Source of the DNA: Prescottella equi | Lineage (GTDB): Bacteria > Actinomycetota > Actinomycetes > Mycobacteriales > Mycobacteriaceae | Direction: 5' to 3' | DNA: 64,000 nt | Assembly (NCBI RefSeq): GCF_020171745.1 | Contig: NZ_JAIVAH010000004.1 | Span: forward strand, 124,001-188,000 | Shown here: positions 3,429 through 10,358 of the stretch, in pieces | How the letters are laid out: the number at the start of each line of letters is the position of its first letter | How positions within the stretch are numbered: the stretch's first letter is position 1 | Made by a program: the position numbers and the translations under genes | The notes under the pieces: model-generated | The model's input: the letters and a program-made list of their open reading frames with translations, nothing else | Databases searched by the model: none | What the model was told of the DNA's origin: nothing

Positions 3429-4895
3429 TCAGCGCCCGTCGGCCTCCGGCTCCCCCGGCAACACGATGCGGATCCGGGCGCCGCCCCGATCCGACGTCTC
3501 GACCGCGATCGTGCCGCCGTGCTTGACGACGACCTGCCGGACGATGGCCAGACCGAGGCCCGATCCCGGCATCGAGCGGGATGCGGTGGACCGGTAGAAC
3601 CGCTCGAAGACCAGTTCGCGGTCCTCGATCGGAATGCCGGGACCGGCGTCGTCGACGACGAGTTCGAGCAGCCGGTCGCCGATCTGCCGCATCGTGACGT
3701 CGACCCGTTCCCCGGTCGGGCTCCACTTGGCCGCGTTGTCGAGGACGTTGAGGACCGCACGGGACAGCCCGGCCTGGTCGCCGTAGATGAACCACGGCGT
3801 CGTCTGCGCCTCGAAGTCGATCTCGTTGCGGCGGCGCCGCGCCTTCTCCAGAGATCGTTCGACGACCTCGCTCAGATCGACGAGTTCGAACACCGTCTCG
3901 GGGGCGTCCTCGCGGGCCAGGTCGACGAGGTCGCCGACGAGCGTGGACAGCTCCTCGATCTGCGCGACGACGTCCGCGCGCAGATCGGCCATGTCCTCGT
4001 CGGGGATGCTCGGCGCACCGGGGCGGCTGGACGCGATCAGCAGCTCCATGTTGGTGCGCAGGGACGTCAGCGGCGTGCGCAGTTCGTGCCCGGCGTCCGC
4101 CACCAGGCGGCTCTGCCGATTCCGCGACTCCCCCAGTGCACGGAGCATCGTGTTGAAACTGGTGGTGAGTCGGGCGAGTTCGTCGTTGCCGGTCACCGGG
4201 ATGGGCGTGAGGTCGTCGGTGCGGGCGACGCGTTCGGCCGCGGCGGTCAGCCGGGCGATCGGCCGCAGACCGGTCCGTCCCACAGTGGTGCCGGCGGCCG
4301 CCGCGAGCACGACGCCGCAGCCGCCCACCACGAACAGCACCCATGCGAGGCGGTCGAGCACGTCCTCGGTGGGTTCGAGGCGCTGCGCGATCACCAGGGT
4401 GCTGCCGTCGCGGGTCCGCTCGGCCAGTACCCGGTTGCCCTCGACGGTCCGCAGCGACGAGTCGAGTTGCCCGCGGGCGACGGCGAGTTCGGCGGGTCCG
4501 ATCGGCACCACGGAACCCGGCGGAATGTACTTGTTCAGGTCCGGGAAGATCAGCGCCACACTGATATCGGTGGTGTAGAGGGTGGCGCCCGCGATGTACC
4601 GCGGATCGAACGTGATGAGGTCGTTGTCGACGATCGCCGATGCGCGGGAACGCAGTTGGTGGTCCACGTCCGCGTACAGCGCCCGCGACACCACCGCGTA
4701 CGCGGCGAACGCCATCAGCGCCACAGCGATCGCGACGACCGACGTCGCGAGCAGCGTCACGCGCCAGCGCAGCGACACCGACCGCGTCAACGGCATCGGG
4801 GGCCGCATCTCGTGCTGCACGGGCCGCATGGGGCGGAACGGGGGCAGCGGACCGGGCTGTGGCGCCGGACCGGACCGGCCGAAGGGCGTACCCAT
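3429..4895 (-). CDS. mprB: Envelope-stress sensor histidine kinase MprB
   Basis: MprB senses surface stress and phosphorylates MprA. The 488-aa product has a proline-rich cytoplasmic N-terminus, TM1 at about 43-67, an extracytoplasmic sensor region of about 115 residues and TM2 at about 186-204. A HAMP linker (RTGLRPIARLTAAAERVA) follows, then the dimerisation box with phospho-acceptor H270 in DAGHELRTPLTSLR, and a HATPase domain with N box (DNAAKWSP), G1 (DDAGPGIP) and G2 (GSGLGLAIV). ATG 4895 shares one base with the mprA stop (TGATG), so the two genes are translationally coupled. Domain order and many segments match M. tuberculosis MprB. Confidence 0.96.
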   Translation of the reverse strand: MGTPFGRSGPAPQPGPLPPFRPMRPVQHEMRPPMPLTRSVSLRWRVTLLATSVVAIAVALMAFAAYAVVSRALYADVDHQLRSRASAIVDNDLITFDPRYIAGATLYTTDISVALIFPDLNKYIPPGSVVPIGPAELAVARGQLDSSLRTVEGNRVLAERTRDGSTLVIAQRLEPTEDVLDRLAWVLFVVGGCGVVLAAAAGTTVGRTGLRPIARLTAAAERVARTDDLTPIPVTGNDELARLTTSFNTMLRALGESRNRQSRLVADAGHELRTPLTSLRTNMELLIASSRPGAPSIPDEDMADLRADVVAQIEELSTLVGDLVDLAREDAPETVFELVDLSEVVERSLEKARRRRNEIDFEAQTTPWFIYGDQAGLSRAVLNVLDNAAKWSPTGERVDVTMRQIGDRLLELVVDDAGPGIPIEDRELVFERFYRSTASRSMPGSGLGLAIVRQVVVKHGGTIAVETSDRGGARIRIVLPGEPEADGR

Positions 4896-5581
4896 CACGG
4901 AGGCGTCTCCCGCAGGACGTAGCCGACACCGCGCACCGTGTGGATGAGGCGCGGCTCGCCGTCCGCCTCGGTCTTGCGGCGCAGGTAACCGACGTACACC
5001 TCGAGCGCGTTGCCCGACGTCGGGAAGTCGTAGCCCCACACCTCCTCGAGGATGCGGCTGCGGGACAGGACCCGGCGCGGGTTCGCCATCAGCATCTCGA
5101 GCAGCGAGAACTCGGTGCGGGTGAGGCTGATCGATCGCCCGCCGCGGGTCACCTCCCGGGTCACCGGATCCAGCGTCAGGTCCTCGAACGTCATCGCCTC
5201 GGAGTCGTCACCGGCCACCGGCGCCGTCCGGCGCAGCAGCGCGCGCAGGCGGGCCAGCAACTCCTCGAGCGCGAACGGCTTGGGCAGGTAGTCGTCGGCT
5301 CCGGCGTCCAGGCCGGCCACTCGCTCCGACACCGAATCACGGGCGGTGAGAACGAGAATCGGCAGATCGTCGCCGGTGCTGCGCAGGCGACGGCAGACCT
5401 CGAGGCCGTCCAGGCGCGGCATCATCACATCGAGCACGAGCGCATCGGGGCGCGACGCCGTGACCTTCTCGAGGGCGTCCATCCCGTCGACAGCGAGGTC
5501 GACCGTGTAGCCGTTGAAGCTCAGGGATCGCCGCAGCGACTCCCGCACCGCCCGGTCGTCGTCGACCACCAATATGCGCAT
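4895..5581 (-). CDS. mprA: OmpR-family response regulator MprA
   Basis: MprA is the DNA-binding partner of MprB and controls stress genes such as pepD and extracytoplasmic sigma factors in mycobacteria. The 228-aa product has a receiver domain with the acidic pocket D7-D9, phospho-acceptor D51 (LVLDVMMP), a conserved LTARD segment and Lys in PKPF. A C-terminal winged helix follows, with [20 protein letters not shown] and the terminal VRGVGYVLR wing. Its stop overlaps the mprB start. A box of two TCTCAG repeats ends 23 bases upstream of the ATG, indicating autoregulation. Confidence 0.97.
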
Positions 5582-5643: not shown

Positions 5644-6255
5644 TCACTCCCGGGACAACCGCGGACCGGGCAGGGACCATCGCCGCCACATCGCGAGCAG
5701 GCGCAACCCCGACGCCACCACCGTGCCGATCACGAGCGAGGTGTCGTCGGTCAGACCCGCCGACGTCCCCGCCACCACGAGCCCGGCCCCCAGCAGCGCC
5801 GGGATGGCGTACAGGTCGCGGTGCAGCAGCAGCGGCACCTCGTTCACCAGGACGTCGCGCAGGATGCCGCCGCCGATGGCGGTGGTGGCCCCGATCAGCA
5901 CCGACGCGAGTACCCCGGCACCGGCGTCGAGCGCGATCACGGCGCCGGTGCTCGCGAACAACCCCATGCCGAGCGCGTCGAGCACCAGGATCTCCCGGCG
6001 CAGCTTGCCGAGCGCCGAGTGCAGGAAGAACACCACGACGGACGTCGCGACCGCCGTCCCGAACAGCGGCCAGCTGGTCAACGACGTCGGCGGATGGATC
6101 CCGAGCAGGATGTCACGCACGATACCGCCGCCGATGCCTGTGAAGACTCCGACGACGCACACCCCGAAGACGTCGAAGCGCTTGCTGACCCCGACGAGGG
6201 CACCGGACGCGGCGAACGCGACGATGCCCACCAGCTCGAGGATCTTCAGCAGCAC
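5644..6255 (-). CDS. TRIC-type cation channel / YicG-family membrane protein
   Basis: The 203-aa protein is almost wholly membrane-embedded, with about six to seven hydrophobic helices. It shows the internal duplication of the UPF0126/TRIC family: the loop GGGIVRDILLG near residues 43-53 recurs as GGGILRDVLV in the second half. Prokaryotic TRIC proteins form trimeric channels for monovalent cations, though the physiological role in actinobacteria is not established. The start is GTG at 6255. The gene lies between mprA and the ribosomal-protein island in the same orientation, so readthrough from rpmF is possible. Confidence 0.88.
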   Translation of the reverse strand: MLLKILELVGIVAFAASGALVGVSKRFDVFGVCVVGVFTGIGGGIVRDILLGIHPPTSLTSWPLFGTAVATSVVVFFLHSALGKLRREILVLDALGMGLFASTGAVIALDAGAGVLASVLIGATTAIGGGILRDVLVNEVPLLLHRDLYAIPALLGAGLVVAGTSAGLTDDTSLVIGTVVASGLRLLAMWRRWSLPGPRLSRE

Positions 6256-6288: not shown

Positions 6289-6461
6289 TCACAGGCGCGA
6301 CGGATCGATCACCCCCAGTCGAATACCGCGGACCAGCCGTCGCGGTACGCGGAACGACTGTCCGCCCACGGTCACCGTCACCAGATCGGGGCAGCCGTCT
6401 TCCACTGTGCTCGCCGGCTTCGGGTGTTGGCACGCGACAGGCGCCGCTTCGGTACCGCCAT
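6289..6461 (-). pseudogene. rpmF: Ribosomal protein L32 gene with an internal -1 frameshift
   Basis: From ATG 6461, three bases after the rpmE2 stop, the frame gives a perfect L32 N-terminus (MAVPKRRLSRANTRSRRAQW, then KTAAP) but hits TGA at 6378-6380 after 27 residues. The L32 C-terminus (DLVTVTVGGQSFRVPRRLV, ending DPSRL) continues in another frame to the stop at 6289-6291. Adding one C to the CCCC run just before the GATCTG segment would rejoin both halves into 57 aa, the normal L32 length. This is therefore either a one-base deletion or a sequencing error in a C homopolymer. M. tuberculosis rpmF (Rv0979A) also lies near mprA, so this may be the main L32 copy. Confidence 0.85.
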
Positions 6462-6464
6462 CGC

Positions 6465-6734
6465 TCAGTCCCCCAGGCTTCCACGACGGACCCGGCGGCC
6501 GTATCGGCGCTCGAACCTCTCGACCCGGCCCTCGGTGTCGACGATGCGGTCCGCTCCCGTCCAGAACGGGTGGGACGCGCAGGTGACGTCGACGACGACC
6601 AGCGGATAGCTTCGACCGTCCTCCCACACCACGGTGCGGTCGGTGCGTGCCGTCGACCTCGTCAGAAACGCCGTCCCGGTGTTCGCGTCCTGGAACACCA
6701 CGGGTCGGTAGTCGGGATGGATTCCGGTTTTCAC
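6465..6734 (-). CDS. rpmE2: Ribosomal protein L31 type B (zinc-independent)
   Basis: L31 type B replaces the zinc-binding L31 in the 50S subunit when zinc is scarce. The 89-aa product begins [19 protein letters not shown] and carries the type-B signature ASHPFWTG. It lacks the CxxC zinc knuckle and has one Cys only. The start is GTG 6734, which overlaps the stop of the CobW-like gene by four bases (GTGA), so the two are translationally coupled. It is the second gene of a minus-strand operon (cobW-like, rpmE2, rpmF) that diverges from four more zinc-free ribosomal protein genes over shared Zur-type sites. Confidence 0.95.
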
Positions 6735-7975
6735 GATGCCTTCTCTCCGTTCTTCTCGAGCGCGCCCAGGGGTGCCCCGGCGCACGGGTCGGTGTGGAAC
6801 TCGCCGAACGGGTCGTCCCAGGTGGGCCACGACGCCTCGTCGACGAGTTCGCGTTCGGTGAGCAGCGCCCACCCGAGTGCGGCGGTGATCTCCGCGGGTT
6901 CGACGTCGTGAACCAGGGCCACGATCGAGGTGTCCCGGTCGCCGAACCGCGCATCCCACCCGAGGGCCGCGAGAGCCAGGCGCTCCGGATCGACGACCGA
7001 AACTTCTTCGTCGGTCATGTCGGCGCGCCAGCGGTCGGCAGCGGCCACTCGTAGTCCCCCGCCGGCGGATTCGAGCCACAGCGCGACGTCGGGGCGGGTC
7101 GCGAGCCAGAGTCGACCGCGGGCGGTGACGACACCGTCGAGCAGGACGTCGATCGCCTCGTGCAGTCGGCCCGGATGGAACGGGCGGCGCGCCGTGAACT
7201 CGACGAGCGCGACGCCGTGATCCTCGTCGAGCGGCGGGCGCCCGCGCAGCAGCGGCGAGTGGGCACCGTCGACTCGACCGCGCCGGGCGTCGGCGCCGAT
7301 GCGCGGCACGAGCGCGGGTCCGTCCGCGACCGACGAGATCGGGGCGCCCGGCGCGAGCCGGGCGAGCACCGCGCGAACCCTGTGTATCGACCACGGGTCG
7401 GACGCGGCGTCGTCGACCACGAGCGCGTCGGCGAACGCGACCTGCCCCACCGCGACCTGCGCGACGGTCCGGTCGTCGTCGAGGTCCTCGTCGCCGGTCA
7501 CCGCGTCCCACCACCCGTCGACGTCGAGGCAGGTGACGACGCCCTCGACCCGGACGTCGCGGGCGGCCGGCCCGTCGATCTGCCCGACGACGCCTACCAC
7601 CGGCACGTGTTCGATCGCCCAGCACACCGCCTCGGGCTCGAACGCGGGGTCGAGTTCGAGGACGACCCGATGCACCGAGCTGCGCGCATGCAACTTCCGT
7701 AGCAATGGCAGCAGGTCGTACCGCAGCGTGCAGGACACGCACCCGTGGGCGAGTTCGAGGATCTCCACGGTCACCGCCGGGGCGTCGACCGATCCGGTCG
7801 TGATCGTCCGGCGCACGACCCCCTGCCCCAGGTCGGCGAGATCGTGACGGACCACGACGGTGCCCGTGTCCGCGTCACCGAGGAACGAGCGGGCCGTTTC
7901 GTGCACCGGCCCGCTCCACCCGCTCACGAGCACCAGTGGAGTGCGGCCGTCCGGTAGCTCCGACAGCGCAGCCAC
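6731..7975 (-). CDS. CobW/COG0523-like protein of the zinc-starvation operon (Mrf-like)
   Basis: The 414-aa protein has the CobW layout. The GCVSC segment (residues 78-82) matches the family metal-binding GCxxC motif, and the CobW C-terminal domain is recognisable (about 270-400, including [16 protein letters not shown]). The N-terminal P-loop is degenerate: [14 protein letters not shown] occupies the Walker A site without GxxxxGK[ST], so canonical GTP binding looks lost. In M. smegmatis the CobW-like gene beside the zinc-free ribosomal proteins encodes Mrf, which helps load a hibernation factor onto ribosomes; by context this is a candidate equivalent. GTG 7975 is chosen because AAAGGGG lies 6 bases upstream and an earlier in-frame ATG would place the start beyond the first Zur box. 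Confidence 0.82.
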
Positions 7976-7989
7976 AATCAACCCCTTTC

Positions 7990-8002
7990 GAAAACGATTG
8001 TC
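7990..8002. promoter_or_regulatory. Zur-type box 1 in the divergent ribosomal-protein promoter region
   Basis: GAAAACGATTGTC is an imperfect inverted repeat (GAAAA-N3-TTGTC) within an AT-rich patch that stands out in this GC-rich sequence. It resembles actinobacterial Zur sites with a GAAAATGATTTTC core. It overlaps the upstream region of the CobW-like operon. Confidence 0.7.
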
Positions 8003-8040
8003 ATTAACGATTGAGGAGGATACGCTCATTCCGTGTTATC

Positions 8041-8053
8041 GACAACTGTTTTC
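8041..8053. promoter_or_regulatory. Zur-type box 2 upstream of rpmB
   Basis: GACAACTGTTTTC is the reverse complement of GAAAACAGTTGTC, which differs from box 1 at two central positions only. Two such sites in opposite orientation fit independent zinc-dependent repression of the two divergent operons. Confidence 0.65.
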
Positions 8054-8088
8054 AACAACCCGCCGTTCGTGGCCGGAAAGGAGCCCCC

Positions 8089-8325
8089 GTGTCCGCTCAC
8101 TGCCAGGTGACCGGCAGACGCCCCGGCTTCGGCCGATCCGTGTCGCACTCCCATCGACGGACCAGTCGGCGCTGGAACCCCAACATCCAGAGCAAGACGT
8201 ACTTCCTGCCCGGGGAGGGCCGCCGCGTCACCCTGCGCGTGACACCGAAGGGCATTCGAACGATCGACCGCGACGGCATCGAAGCCGTCGTCGCCCGCAT
8301 CCGGGCGTCCGGAGAGAAGGTCTGA
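8089..8325 (+). CDS. rpmB2: Ribosomal protein L28, zinc-free paralogue
   Basis: The 78-aa product has the L28 signature ([21 protein letters not shown], then [19 protein letters not shown]). It carries a single Cys and none of the CxxC pairs of the zinc-binding form, so it belongs to the C-minus class made when Zur is derepressed. The GTG at 8089 is preceded by GGAAAGGAG. It is the first gene of a tight four-gene operon (spacings of 3-9 bases), transcribed away from the CobW-like gene over the two Zur-type boxes. Confidence 0.95.
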
Positions 8326-8330
8326 AAACC

Positions 8331-8495
8331 ATGGCAAGCAACGAGATCCGCCCGCTCACCAAACTCGTCTCGACGGCGGGAACCGGCTACCGCTACTACA
8401 CCCGGAAGAACCGGCGCAACGACCCCGATCGGCTGATACTCCGCCGCTACGACCCGGTGGTTCGCCGACACGTCGACTTCCGAGAGGAGCGCTGA
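8331..8495 (+). CDS. rpmG2: Ribosomal protein L33, zinc-free paralogue
   Basis: This 54-aa 50S protein contains [20 protein letters not shown] and [19 protein letters not shown], a full-length L33. No cysteine remains, so the zinc ribbon of standard L33 is absent. ATG 8331 lies five bases after the rpmB2 stop. It is expected to replace the zinc-binding L33 under zinc limitation and is cotranscribed with rpmB2, rpsN2 and rpsR2. Confidence 0.95.
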
Positions 8496-8498
8496 CCC

Positions 8499-8804
8499 GT
8501 GGCGAAGAAATCGAAGATCGTCCGGAACGAACAACGCAAGGTGATCGTCGCGCGCTACGCGCCGCTCCGCGCGGAACTGAAGGAGACGATCCGGCGTCCG
8601 TCCAGCACGCCGGAGGAACGCGCCGCAGCACAGTTTCTGCTGGCAGGGCTGCCGCGGGACGCGAGTCCGGTACGATTGCGCAATCGAGACACCGCGGATG
8701 GACGTCCGCGCGGTCACCTGCGAAAGTTCGGCCTCTCCCGCATACGGGTACGCGAGATGGCCCACCGCGGGGAGCTGCCAGGCGTGCACAAGTCGAGCTG
8801 GTAA
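8499..8804 (+). CDS. rpsN2: Ribosomal protein S14, zinc-free paralogue
   Basis: The 101-aa product is the long S14 type: it starts [13 protein letters not shown], contains a central [23 protein letters not shown] insertion, and ends [21 protein letters not shown]. The short zinc-binding S14 is about 61 aa with two CxxC motifs, and here there is no cysteine. GTG 8499 lies three bases after the rpmG2 stop, with GAGAGGAG upstream. It is a 30S component for zinc-poor conditions. Confidence 0.95.
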
Positions 8805-8813
8805 GGAAGAACA

Positions 8814-9068
8814 ATGGCAGTCAAGAGATCACCGTCGAGGAAGCCGCGCGGCGAGCAGGGCCGCCGCCCCAAGAAGAACCCGCTGTTCGCGGCCAAGATC
8901 GAGTACGTCGATTACAAGGACGTCAACCTGCTCCGCACGTTCATCTCGGATCGCGGCAAGATCCGCAGCCGCCGCGTGACGGGCCTGACGCCGCAGCAGC
9001 AGCGCCAGGTCGCCATCGCCGTGAAGAACGCCCGCGAGATGGCGCTCCTTCCCTTCACCAGCCGCTAG
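8814..9068 (+). CDS. rpsR2: Ribosomal protein S18, zinc-free paralogue
   Basis: The 84-aa product has the S18 core ([21 protein letters not shown], then [31 protein letters not shown]) and no cysteines. It is the last gene of the operon. ATG 8814 follows GGAAGAAC, and a strong GC-rich hairpin starts eight bases after the stop. It replaces standard S18 when Zur repression is lifted. Confidence 0.95.
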
Positions 9069-9170: not shown

Positions 9171-10358
9171 GTGTCGTTTTCGTTCCGTACCGCTGTTCTT
9201 CTCGCCGCGACTGCCCTGACCGTGGGCGGTGTCGCGGCGTGCTCGTCCGATGGCTCGGGTGATTCCGCGTCCGCCGCCGGCGCCGACTGCATCACCGACT
9301 TCGATGCGAGCACCGACTACTTCCCGGACAAGCAGACCGTCGAGTACGCCGAGAACTTCGACATCGAGTACCACAACTCGTACCAGGTGGTGACGGTCCG
9401 TCAGCCGGGTCAGGCCGACGAGTCGTACGTGCTCACCCGGTGCGGCGCCCCGGCGCCCGAGCTGACCGGCGATCTCGCCGACGCGCAGCAGGTATCCACG
9501 CCGGTGACCAGCCTGTTCGCCGAGTCGACCACCCACCTGCCCAGTCTCGAAGCCCTCGGCAAGCTCGACGTGCTCACCGGTTTCGCGAGCGCCGACTACG
9601 TCTACAGCGAGGCCGCGCGCGAGCACATCGCCGACGACGGCGTCACCCAGTTCGCCACCGCCGGGCAGGTCGACGCGGAGGCCGTCGTCGCGCAGGCGCC
9701 GCAGGCGTTCGTGACCGGCGGCTTCACCGATCCCGCCTTCGCGGTGATCGAGCGCTCGAAGATCCCGGTCCTCGACAACTACGACTGGCTGGAGACCGAC
9801 CCGCTGGGCCGCGCCGAGTGGATCAAGTTCTTCGCGGCACTCACCGGCACCGAGCAGCAGGCCACCGAGGCGTTCGACGGGATCGTCTCCGAGTACGGCA
9901 AGTACACGACGCTCGCCGCGAACGCCGAGGCCGCGCCGATCGTGCCGGGTCTGCCCTACCAGGGCGCCTGGTCGGTGCCGCTGGCCAGCTACTCCAACGC
10001 CCTGTACTCCACCGCCCGCATCACGCACCCGTGGATGACGGAGCCTGGCACCGGCAGCCTGCAGACCGACCTCGAGACGGTGTTCGCGAAGGCCGGTGGG
10101 TACCCGCTGGCGATCAGCACGTCGTCGAACAAGACCAAGGCCGAGGCGATCGCCGCCGAACCGCGGCTCGCCGAGTTCGCGGCGTTCCGCGACGGCCAGG
10201 TGTGGACGTCGTCGGCGCGGATGACCGACGCCGGCGCGCTCGACATCTACGAGCAGGGCGTGCTGCGACCCGATCTGGTGCTCGCCGATCTCATCGCGAT
10301 CGCCCACCCGGGCCTGCTGCCCGGTCACGAGTTCACCTTCTACCGCCAGCTGCAGTGA
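9171..10358 (+). CDS. FecB/BtuF-type substrate-binding lipoprotein
   Basis: This is the extracytoplasmic binding protein of an iron-siderophore, haem, cobalamin or other metallophore ABC importer. The 395-aa product has a lipoprotein signal with lipobox VAAC (C24) followed by a Ser/Gly/Asp linker. A class III periplasmic-binding fold covers about 115-385, with LEALGKLDVLTGFASADYVYS and RPDLVLADLIAIAHPGLLPG as recognisable parts. GTG 9171 is preceded by a -10 element. It overlaps the permease start and forms a three-gene operon. Its position next to the zinc-starvation island raises the possibility of zinc or zincophore uptake, but the sequence alone does not identify the ligand. Confidence 0.88.
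   Translation: MSFSFRTAVLLAATALTVGGVAACSSDGSGDSASAAGADCITDFDASTDYFPDKQTVEYAENFDIEYHNSYQVVTVRQPGQADESYVLTRCGAPAPELTGDLADAQQVSTPVTSLFAESTTHLPSLEALGKLDVLTGFASADYVYSEAAREHIADDGVTQFATAGQVDAEAVVAQAPQAFVTGGFTDPAFAVIERSKIPVLDNYDWLETDPLGRAEWIKFFAALTGTEQQATEAFDGIVSEYGKYTTLAANAEAAPIVPGLPYQGAWSVPLASYSNALYSTARITHPWMTEPGTGSLQTDLETVFAKAGGYPLAISTSSNKTKAEAIAAEPRLAEFAAFRDGQVWTSSARMTDAGALDIYEQGVLRPDLVLADLIAIAHPGLLPGHEFTFYRQLQ

Follow-up and report, generated by a model that had tools for sequence, protein, structure and literature searches.

Cysteine-free paralogs of ribosomal protein L32 (rpmF2/rpmF) under Zur control are described in Streptomyces coelicolor and other actinobacteria (PMC6103462, PMC5472717, PMC2823685). 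The locus analyzed here resembles the actinobacterial Zur regulons in combining an L32 paralog with L31, L28, L33, S14, S18 and a COG0523 protein (PMC6103462, PMC5472717, PMC2823685). Unlike rpmF2/rpmF of S. coelicolor, the gene in the genome under study (G000) is frameshifted, and its putative control by Zur is deduced from DNA boxes. Alternative ribosomal protein operons are also present in mycobacteria; they are truncated in Mycobacterium avium and lacking in Mycobacterium leprae, while the four-gene operon of Mycobacterium smegmatis is dispensable in zinc-replete medium and matters when zinc is scarce (PMC5912738). The present case is similar to the reduced mycobacterial operons in the loss of zinc-independent paralogs, but it concerns another genus, other genes and another mutation (PMC5912738). 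Our literature searches revealed nothing on an rpmF frameshift in Rhodococcus, and, judged by title, none of the listed matches on bacterial L32 pseudogenes dealt with such a break.

The window, i.e., the whole stretch of DNA that was analyzed (G000:C4:124001-188000; 64,000 nt), carries on its minus strand (6461-6289) a cysteine-free rpmF gene, whose N- and C-terminal halves lie in different frames (Table 1). This break was read in one genome, G000, the single strain of its species among the genomes and loci compared. From the ATG at 6461, frame 0 comprises 27 codons followed by a TGA (6380-6378), and the C-terminal half, in the other frame, terminates at a second TGA (6291-6289). Relative to the intact copies, the gene lacks one base, which confirms, with the right coordinates and strand, the original prediction of an rpmF split by a one-base frameshift in a C-run. 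A tblastn search of the window with the intact L32 of Prescottella equi gave two abutting pieces, covering residues 1-25 (88% identity) and 25-57 (90% identity). The PF01783 profile did not match at full length in a single frame, its in-frame match being confined to profile positions 1-24, and the C-terminal half alone produced no Pfam match at E 0.001. No cysteine is encoded in either of the L32-like pieces. The window gene is the ortholog of intact 57-aa copies occupying the same place in relatives (the halves are 88-90% identical to those of P. equi), and two adjoining, well conserved halves at an orthologous place are not a product of chance. Outside the C-run, no further obvious decay was found in the gene, which fits a recent mutation and equally an error.

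Table 1. Features of the rpmF region in the window (positions are those of the window).
Feature	Position	Strand	Evidence or remark
mprA-like regulator	4895-5581		one gene between regulator and rpmF
PF03458-family membrane protein, anchor for finding relatives	5644..6255	-	PF03458 E 5.1e-41
L32 C-terminal half, shifted frame	6289..6387	-	90% identity to the unbroken P. equi L32 (residues 25-57)
L32 N-terminal half	6378..6461	-	PF01783 E 3.4e-7, profile 1-24 of 56; 27 codons + TGA
GTG in the frame of the C-terminal half, overlapping the premature TGA (GTGA)	6379..6381	-	sequence reading
C-run, one base fewer than in nine intact genus copies	6388..6391	-	alignment with relatives
L31 paralog, 3 bases upstream of rpmF	6465..6734	-	PF01197 E 5.3e-27
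CobW/COG0523-type GTPase, start codon uncertain	6731..7981	-	PF02492, PF07683
Zur-like box, divergent region	7989..8003	.	2 mismatches to TGANNATSATNNTCA; aligned with 13 relatives
Second, weaker Zur-like site	~8040-8054	.	divergent region
L28 paralog	8089..8325	+	PF00830
L33 paralog	8331..8495	+	PF00471
S14 paralog	8499..8804	+	PF00253
S18 paralog	8814..9068	+	PF01084

The surrounding cluster is composed of two divergent units: CobW-L31-L32 on the minus strand, with a CobW-L31 overlap of 4 bases and an L31-L32 gap of 3 bases, and L28-L33-S14-S18 on the plus strand, with a divergent region at approximately 7980-8090 between them. The proximity of rpmF to mprA, claimed in the original prediction, was confirmed for the window, where an mprA-like regulator lies one gene away; in M. 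tuberculosis, rpmF is presumably also placed near mprA. G000 is a Prescottella genome (Rhodococcus equi group) near P. equi, and its PF03458 membrane protein is 94-95% identical to the P. equi one. A scan of the whole window for Zur boxes, allowing 2 mismatches, gave 15 matches versus 3.7 expected, so that a box alone is not discriminating and proves little. Within the divergent region, the best Zur-like match has 1-2 mismatches in 14 of 14 aligned sequences (the window genome, nine others of the genus and four Rhodococcus loci), and two sites line up. The gene content and these conserved boxes support the predicted placement of rpmF in a zinc-regulated operon, with Zur as the putative regulator of the CobW-L31-L32 unit. 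Adjoining the cluster (9171-10358) is a gene for a Peripla_BP_2 (PF01497) binding protein, which is not of the usual ZnuA family; proteins of this type are usually siderophore- or cobalamin-linked.

It had been argued that a strain with such a break, if real, must carry another L32 or tolerate its loss, and a search of the rest of the genome for a second intact rpmF had been proposed. The whole-genome search with PF01783 gave two matches above the cut-off. One is the N-terminal half of the window gene; the other, on contig C20, is intact (E 7.5e-24). The latter encodes a protein of 60 residues with four cysteines, arranged in a C-x4-C ... C-x2-C ribbon, and is flanked by genes for YceD (PF02620) and RNase III (PF00636, PF00035). 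The strain is therefore not devoid of L32, and the idea that the broken gene is its sole L32 was ruled out. With nine intact orthologues lacking cysteine and a separate four-cysteine copy on C20, the window gene has the characteristics of a zinc-independent L32 paralog. Among solved structures, those nearest to the unbroken P. equi protein belong to the groups of PDB 5o60 (E 7.8e-21) and 5v7q (E 5.8e-19), whose L32 chains contain no cysteine in the aligned part; we take these to be bL32 of the M. smegmatis and M. tuberculosis ribosomes, respectively. Whereas the mycobacterial protein is the L32 of the solved ribosome, G000 has a separate four-cysteine L32. The closest structures being mycobacterial, the copy that is spare here appears to be the standard L32 there.

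The numbers of L32 genes were also determined across the family, for which 201 genomes were sampled from a larger group and at most 30 candidates were scored per genome. A single weak L32 was recorded in 96 genomes, a single strong one in 24, a strong one accompanied by one or more further copies in 77, several weak ones in 2 and none in 2, the weak and strong classes being separated by score alone (E 1e-15, our own choice) and not by cysteines. As 96 and 24 of the 201 genomes have one L32, genomes with a single type are common.

In the genus sample (14 genomes, G000 included), a second L32 match was present in ten genomes, intact in nine and broken in one (G000); the other four were without it. 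Comparison of the site in close relatives, also proposed with the original prediction, revealed that all nine other second-copy genes are open and unshifted, encode 57 residues and no cysteine, and, in the stretches that were fetched, are surrounded by the cluster neighbors. Beyond these, 79 named loci anchored on the PF03458 membrane protein were read. A full L32 was located no more than 700 bases upstream in 17 of them, and all 17 are open (three come from genomes also included as G001, G003 and G004). The first 44 loci were searched whole and yielded six more L32 genes farther off, each in one piece (54-57 of 57 residues). Apart from L034 and the remnants in L039 and L040, described below, a motif search detected no L32 in the other loci, a large share of which come from Streptomyces and other distant genomes. 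Thus, no L32 shift was encountered among the relatives read. In Rhodococcus sp. IEGM 1379 (L034, 1-155), L32 is cut by the contig end and contains a GTCACC run (Val-Thr repeats).

These comparisons bear on two ways in which the split gene might still function. Recoding, by a programmed shift or by polymerase slippage at the C-run, could yield some full-length L32, and the run does lie exactly at the frame junction; however, it is short, no classical slippery heptamer was seen by eye, and the shift occurs in none of the nine genus relatives, so the shift site is not conserved. Programmed frameshifting was rejected on this last ground, and recoding as a whole is very improbable. It is equally improbable that the halves are separate peptides, the C-terminal one restarted at the GTG (6381-6379), both of which enter zinc-starved ribosomes and together form a two-piece L32. 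This GTG belongs to the frame of the C-terminal half and overlaps the premature TGA (6380-6378), yet it is a plain Val codon: in eight of the nine other genus copies (G010 differs), GTG-AC forms ordinary Val-Thr codons, which, read out of frame, also make up the premature TGA. Moreover, no ribosome-binding site was evident by eye ahead of the GTG, and the arrangement is absent from all nine relatives.

The other alternative is that the organism has an intact gene and that the C-run is wrong in the sequence or its assembly. The difference is a single base in a short homopolymer, a usual place for an indel error, both halves are otherwise well conserved (88 and 90% identity to P. equi), and G000 is a draft of 46 contigs (5.49 Mb). 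Assemblies with many split genes do exist in the genus: in P. defluvii SampleD3_15 (L148/G003, L069), four neighbors in this cluster (the genes for the membrane protein, CobW, L33 and S18) are each split into two matching segments, and this genome (G003, rated 79% complete) is probably a frameshift-prone assembly. Against an error stand the length of the C-run, merely four bases, the rating of G000 as 100% complete and 0.23% contaminated, and the outcome of a frameshift screen, in which the 441-kb contig of G000 was compared with 460 kb of P. equi and 359 ORFs (350 kb) were judged coding. Under a strict criterion, which required codon periodicity to either side of the shift, 8 of the 359 P. 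equi ORFs were flagged for a shift in G000, and rpmF was the one clear internal break. The other seven were inspected; six look antisense, start-extended, fused or shift-free, and one was ambiguous (G004 C2 472355-472840). In the opposite direction, 9 of 355 ORFs were flagged, as a raw count. With rpmF as the sole clear break among 359 ORFs, the G000 assembly is not frameshift-ridden. The scarcity of breaks argues for a real rpmF mutation, short of proof, and we infer that the change in the C-run is real; an error remains an unlikely explanation, though one with appreciably more weight than either form of residual function.

Several apparent frameshifts were dismissed in the course of this comparison. 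The many flags raised by early screens, which had suggested a frameshift-ridden assembly, were mostly start-site extensions or antisense ORFs among those inspected, and a candidate near 56.4 kb of the window is really two neighboring genes with a gap between them. At another site, G000 has one ORF of 1356 aa (C4 97748-101818), and the corresponding region of P. equi DSM 20307 (G004 C2 201246-205302) is interrupted by a one-base difference.

The rpmF gene is not the sole casualty in this cluster. Orthologues of the cluster L31 are present in nine of the 14 genus genomes, G000 included, and missing in five. In the stretch fetched at the anchor genes, G008 has the whole cluster except L31; next to the anchor genes, G006 (L150) and G009 (L153) have kept S18 as the sole cluster gene, and G002 (L157) has kept S18 and a piece of S14. 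Both the second L32 and the cluster L31 were absent from G012 in a genome-wide search for these two proteins. For the genes lost from the cluster, presence elsewhere in the genome was examined for L32, L31 and S18, and each of the 14 genomes has at least two S18 genes. The S18 paralog of G002, G006 and G009 was thus retained despite another S18 in each genome, the cluster being otherwise gone (apart from the S14 piece in G002). A stop inside the L31 of G010 was ruled out as a break, being the gene's own end.

Remnants of rpmF were also detected in Rhodococcus koreensis (L039; the last 43 bases) and Rhodococcus jostii (L040; the last 34 bases), and the two losses may have a common origin. At approximately 5870-6000 of both loci, the remnants adjoin a 40-base palindrome, and a similar palindrome is located between L31 and the intact L32 in Rhodococcus wratislaviensis and Rhodococcus opacus (L041, L070). 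No L31 is present at the cluster site of R. jostii. The genus is losing its zinc-starvation cluster piecemeal and in different ways; with a spare zinc-independent copy and piecemeal loss across the genus, the rpmF break is unremarkable.

We therefore consider it probable that a recent one-base change inactivated the zinc-independent L32 paralog, a dispensable spare in a strain whose L32 is supplied by the C20 copy; in all likelihood, the break reflects ordinary decay of a gene kept as a backup. The window rpmF would be the zinc-independent paralog forming the third gene of the CobW-L31-L32 unit in a Zur-type cluster, and the loss of one base in its short C-run would stop translation after 27 residues. 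With zinc available, ribosomes would take up the four-cysteine L32 and nothing would change. Under zinc starvation, L31, L28, L33, S14 and S18 could still be swapped, and L32 could not. Because L32 is made from the intact four-cysteine gene, loss of the cysteine-free copy should be costless while zinc is available and would at most diminish the zinc saving in starvation. Since the M. smegmatis operon matters when zinc is scarce, some cost of L32 loss is possible; the fitness cost of losing L32 alone is presumably small.

As a single gene break, this case is ordinary. It is nevertheless a small and clear example of the piecewise loss of zinc-starvation paralogs, in which the main zinc-binding copy has been kept. 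One genus displays the cluster in several states (complete, short of a single gene, carrying a frameshift, or nearly all deleted), and this variety would permit a comparative test of the role of each paralog under zinc limitation.
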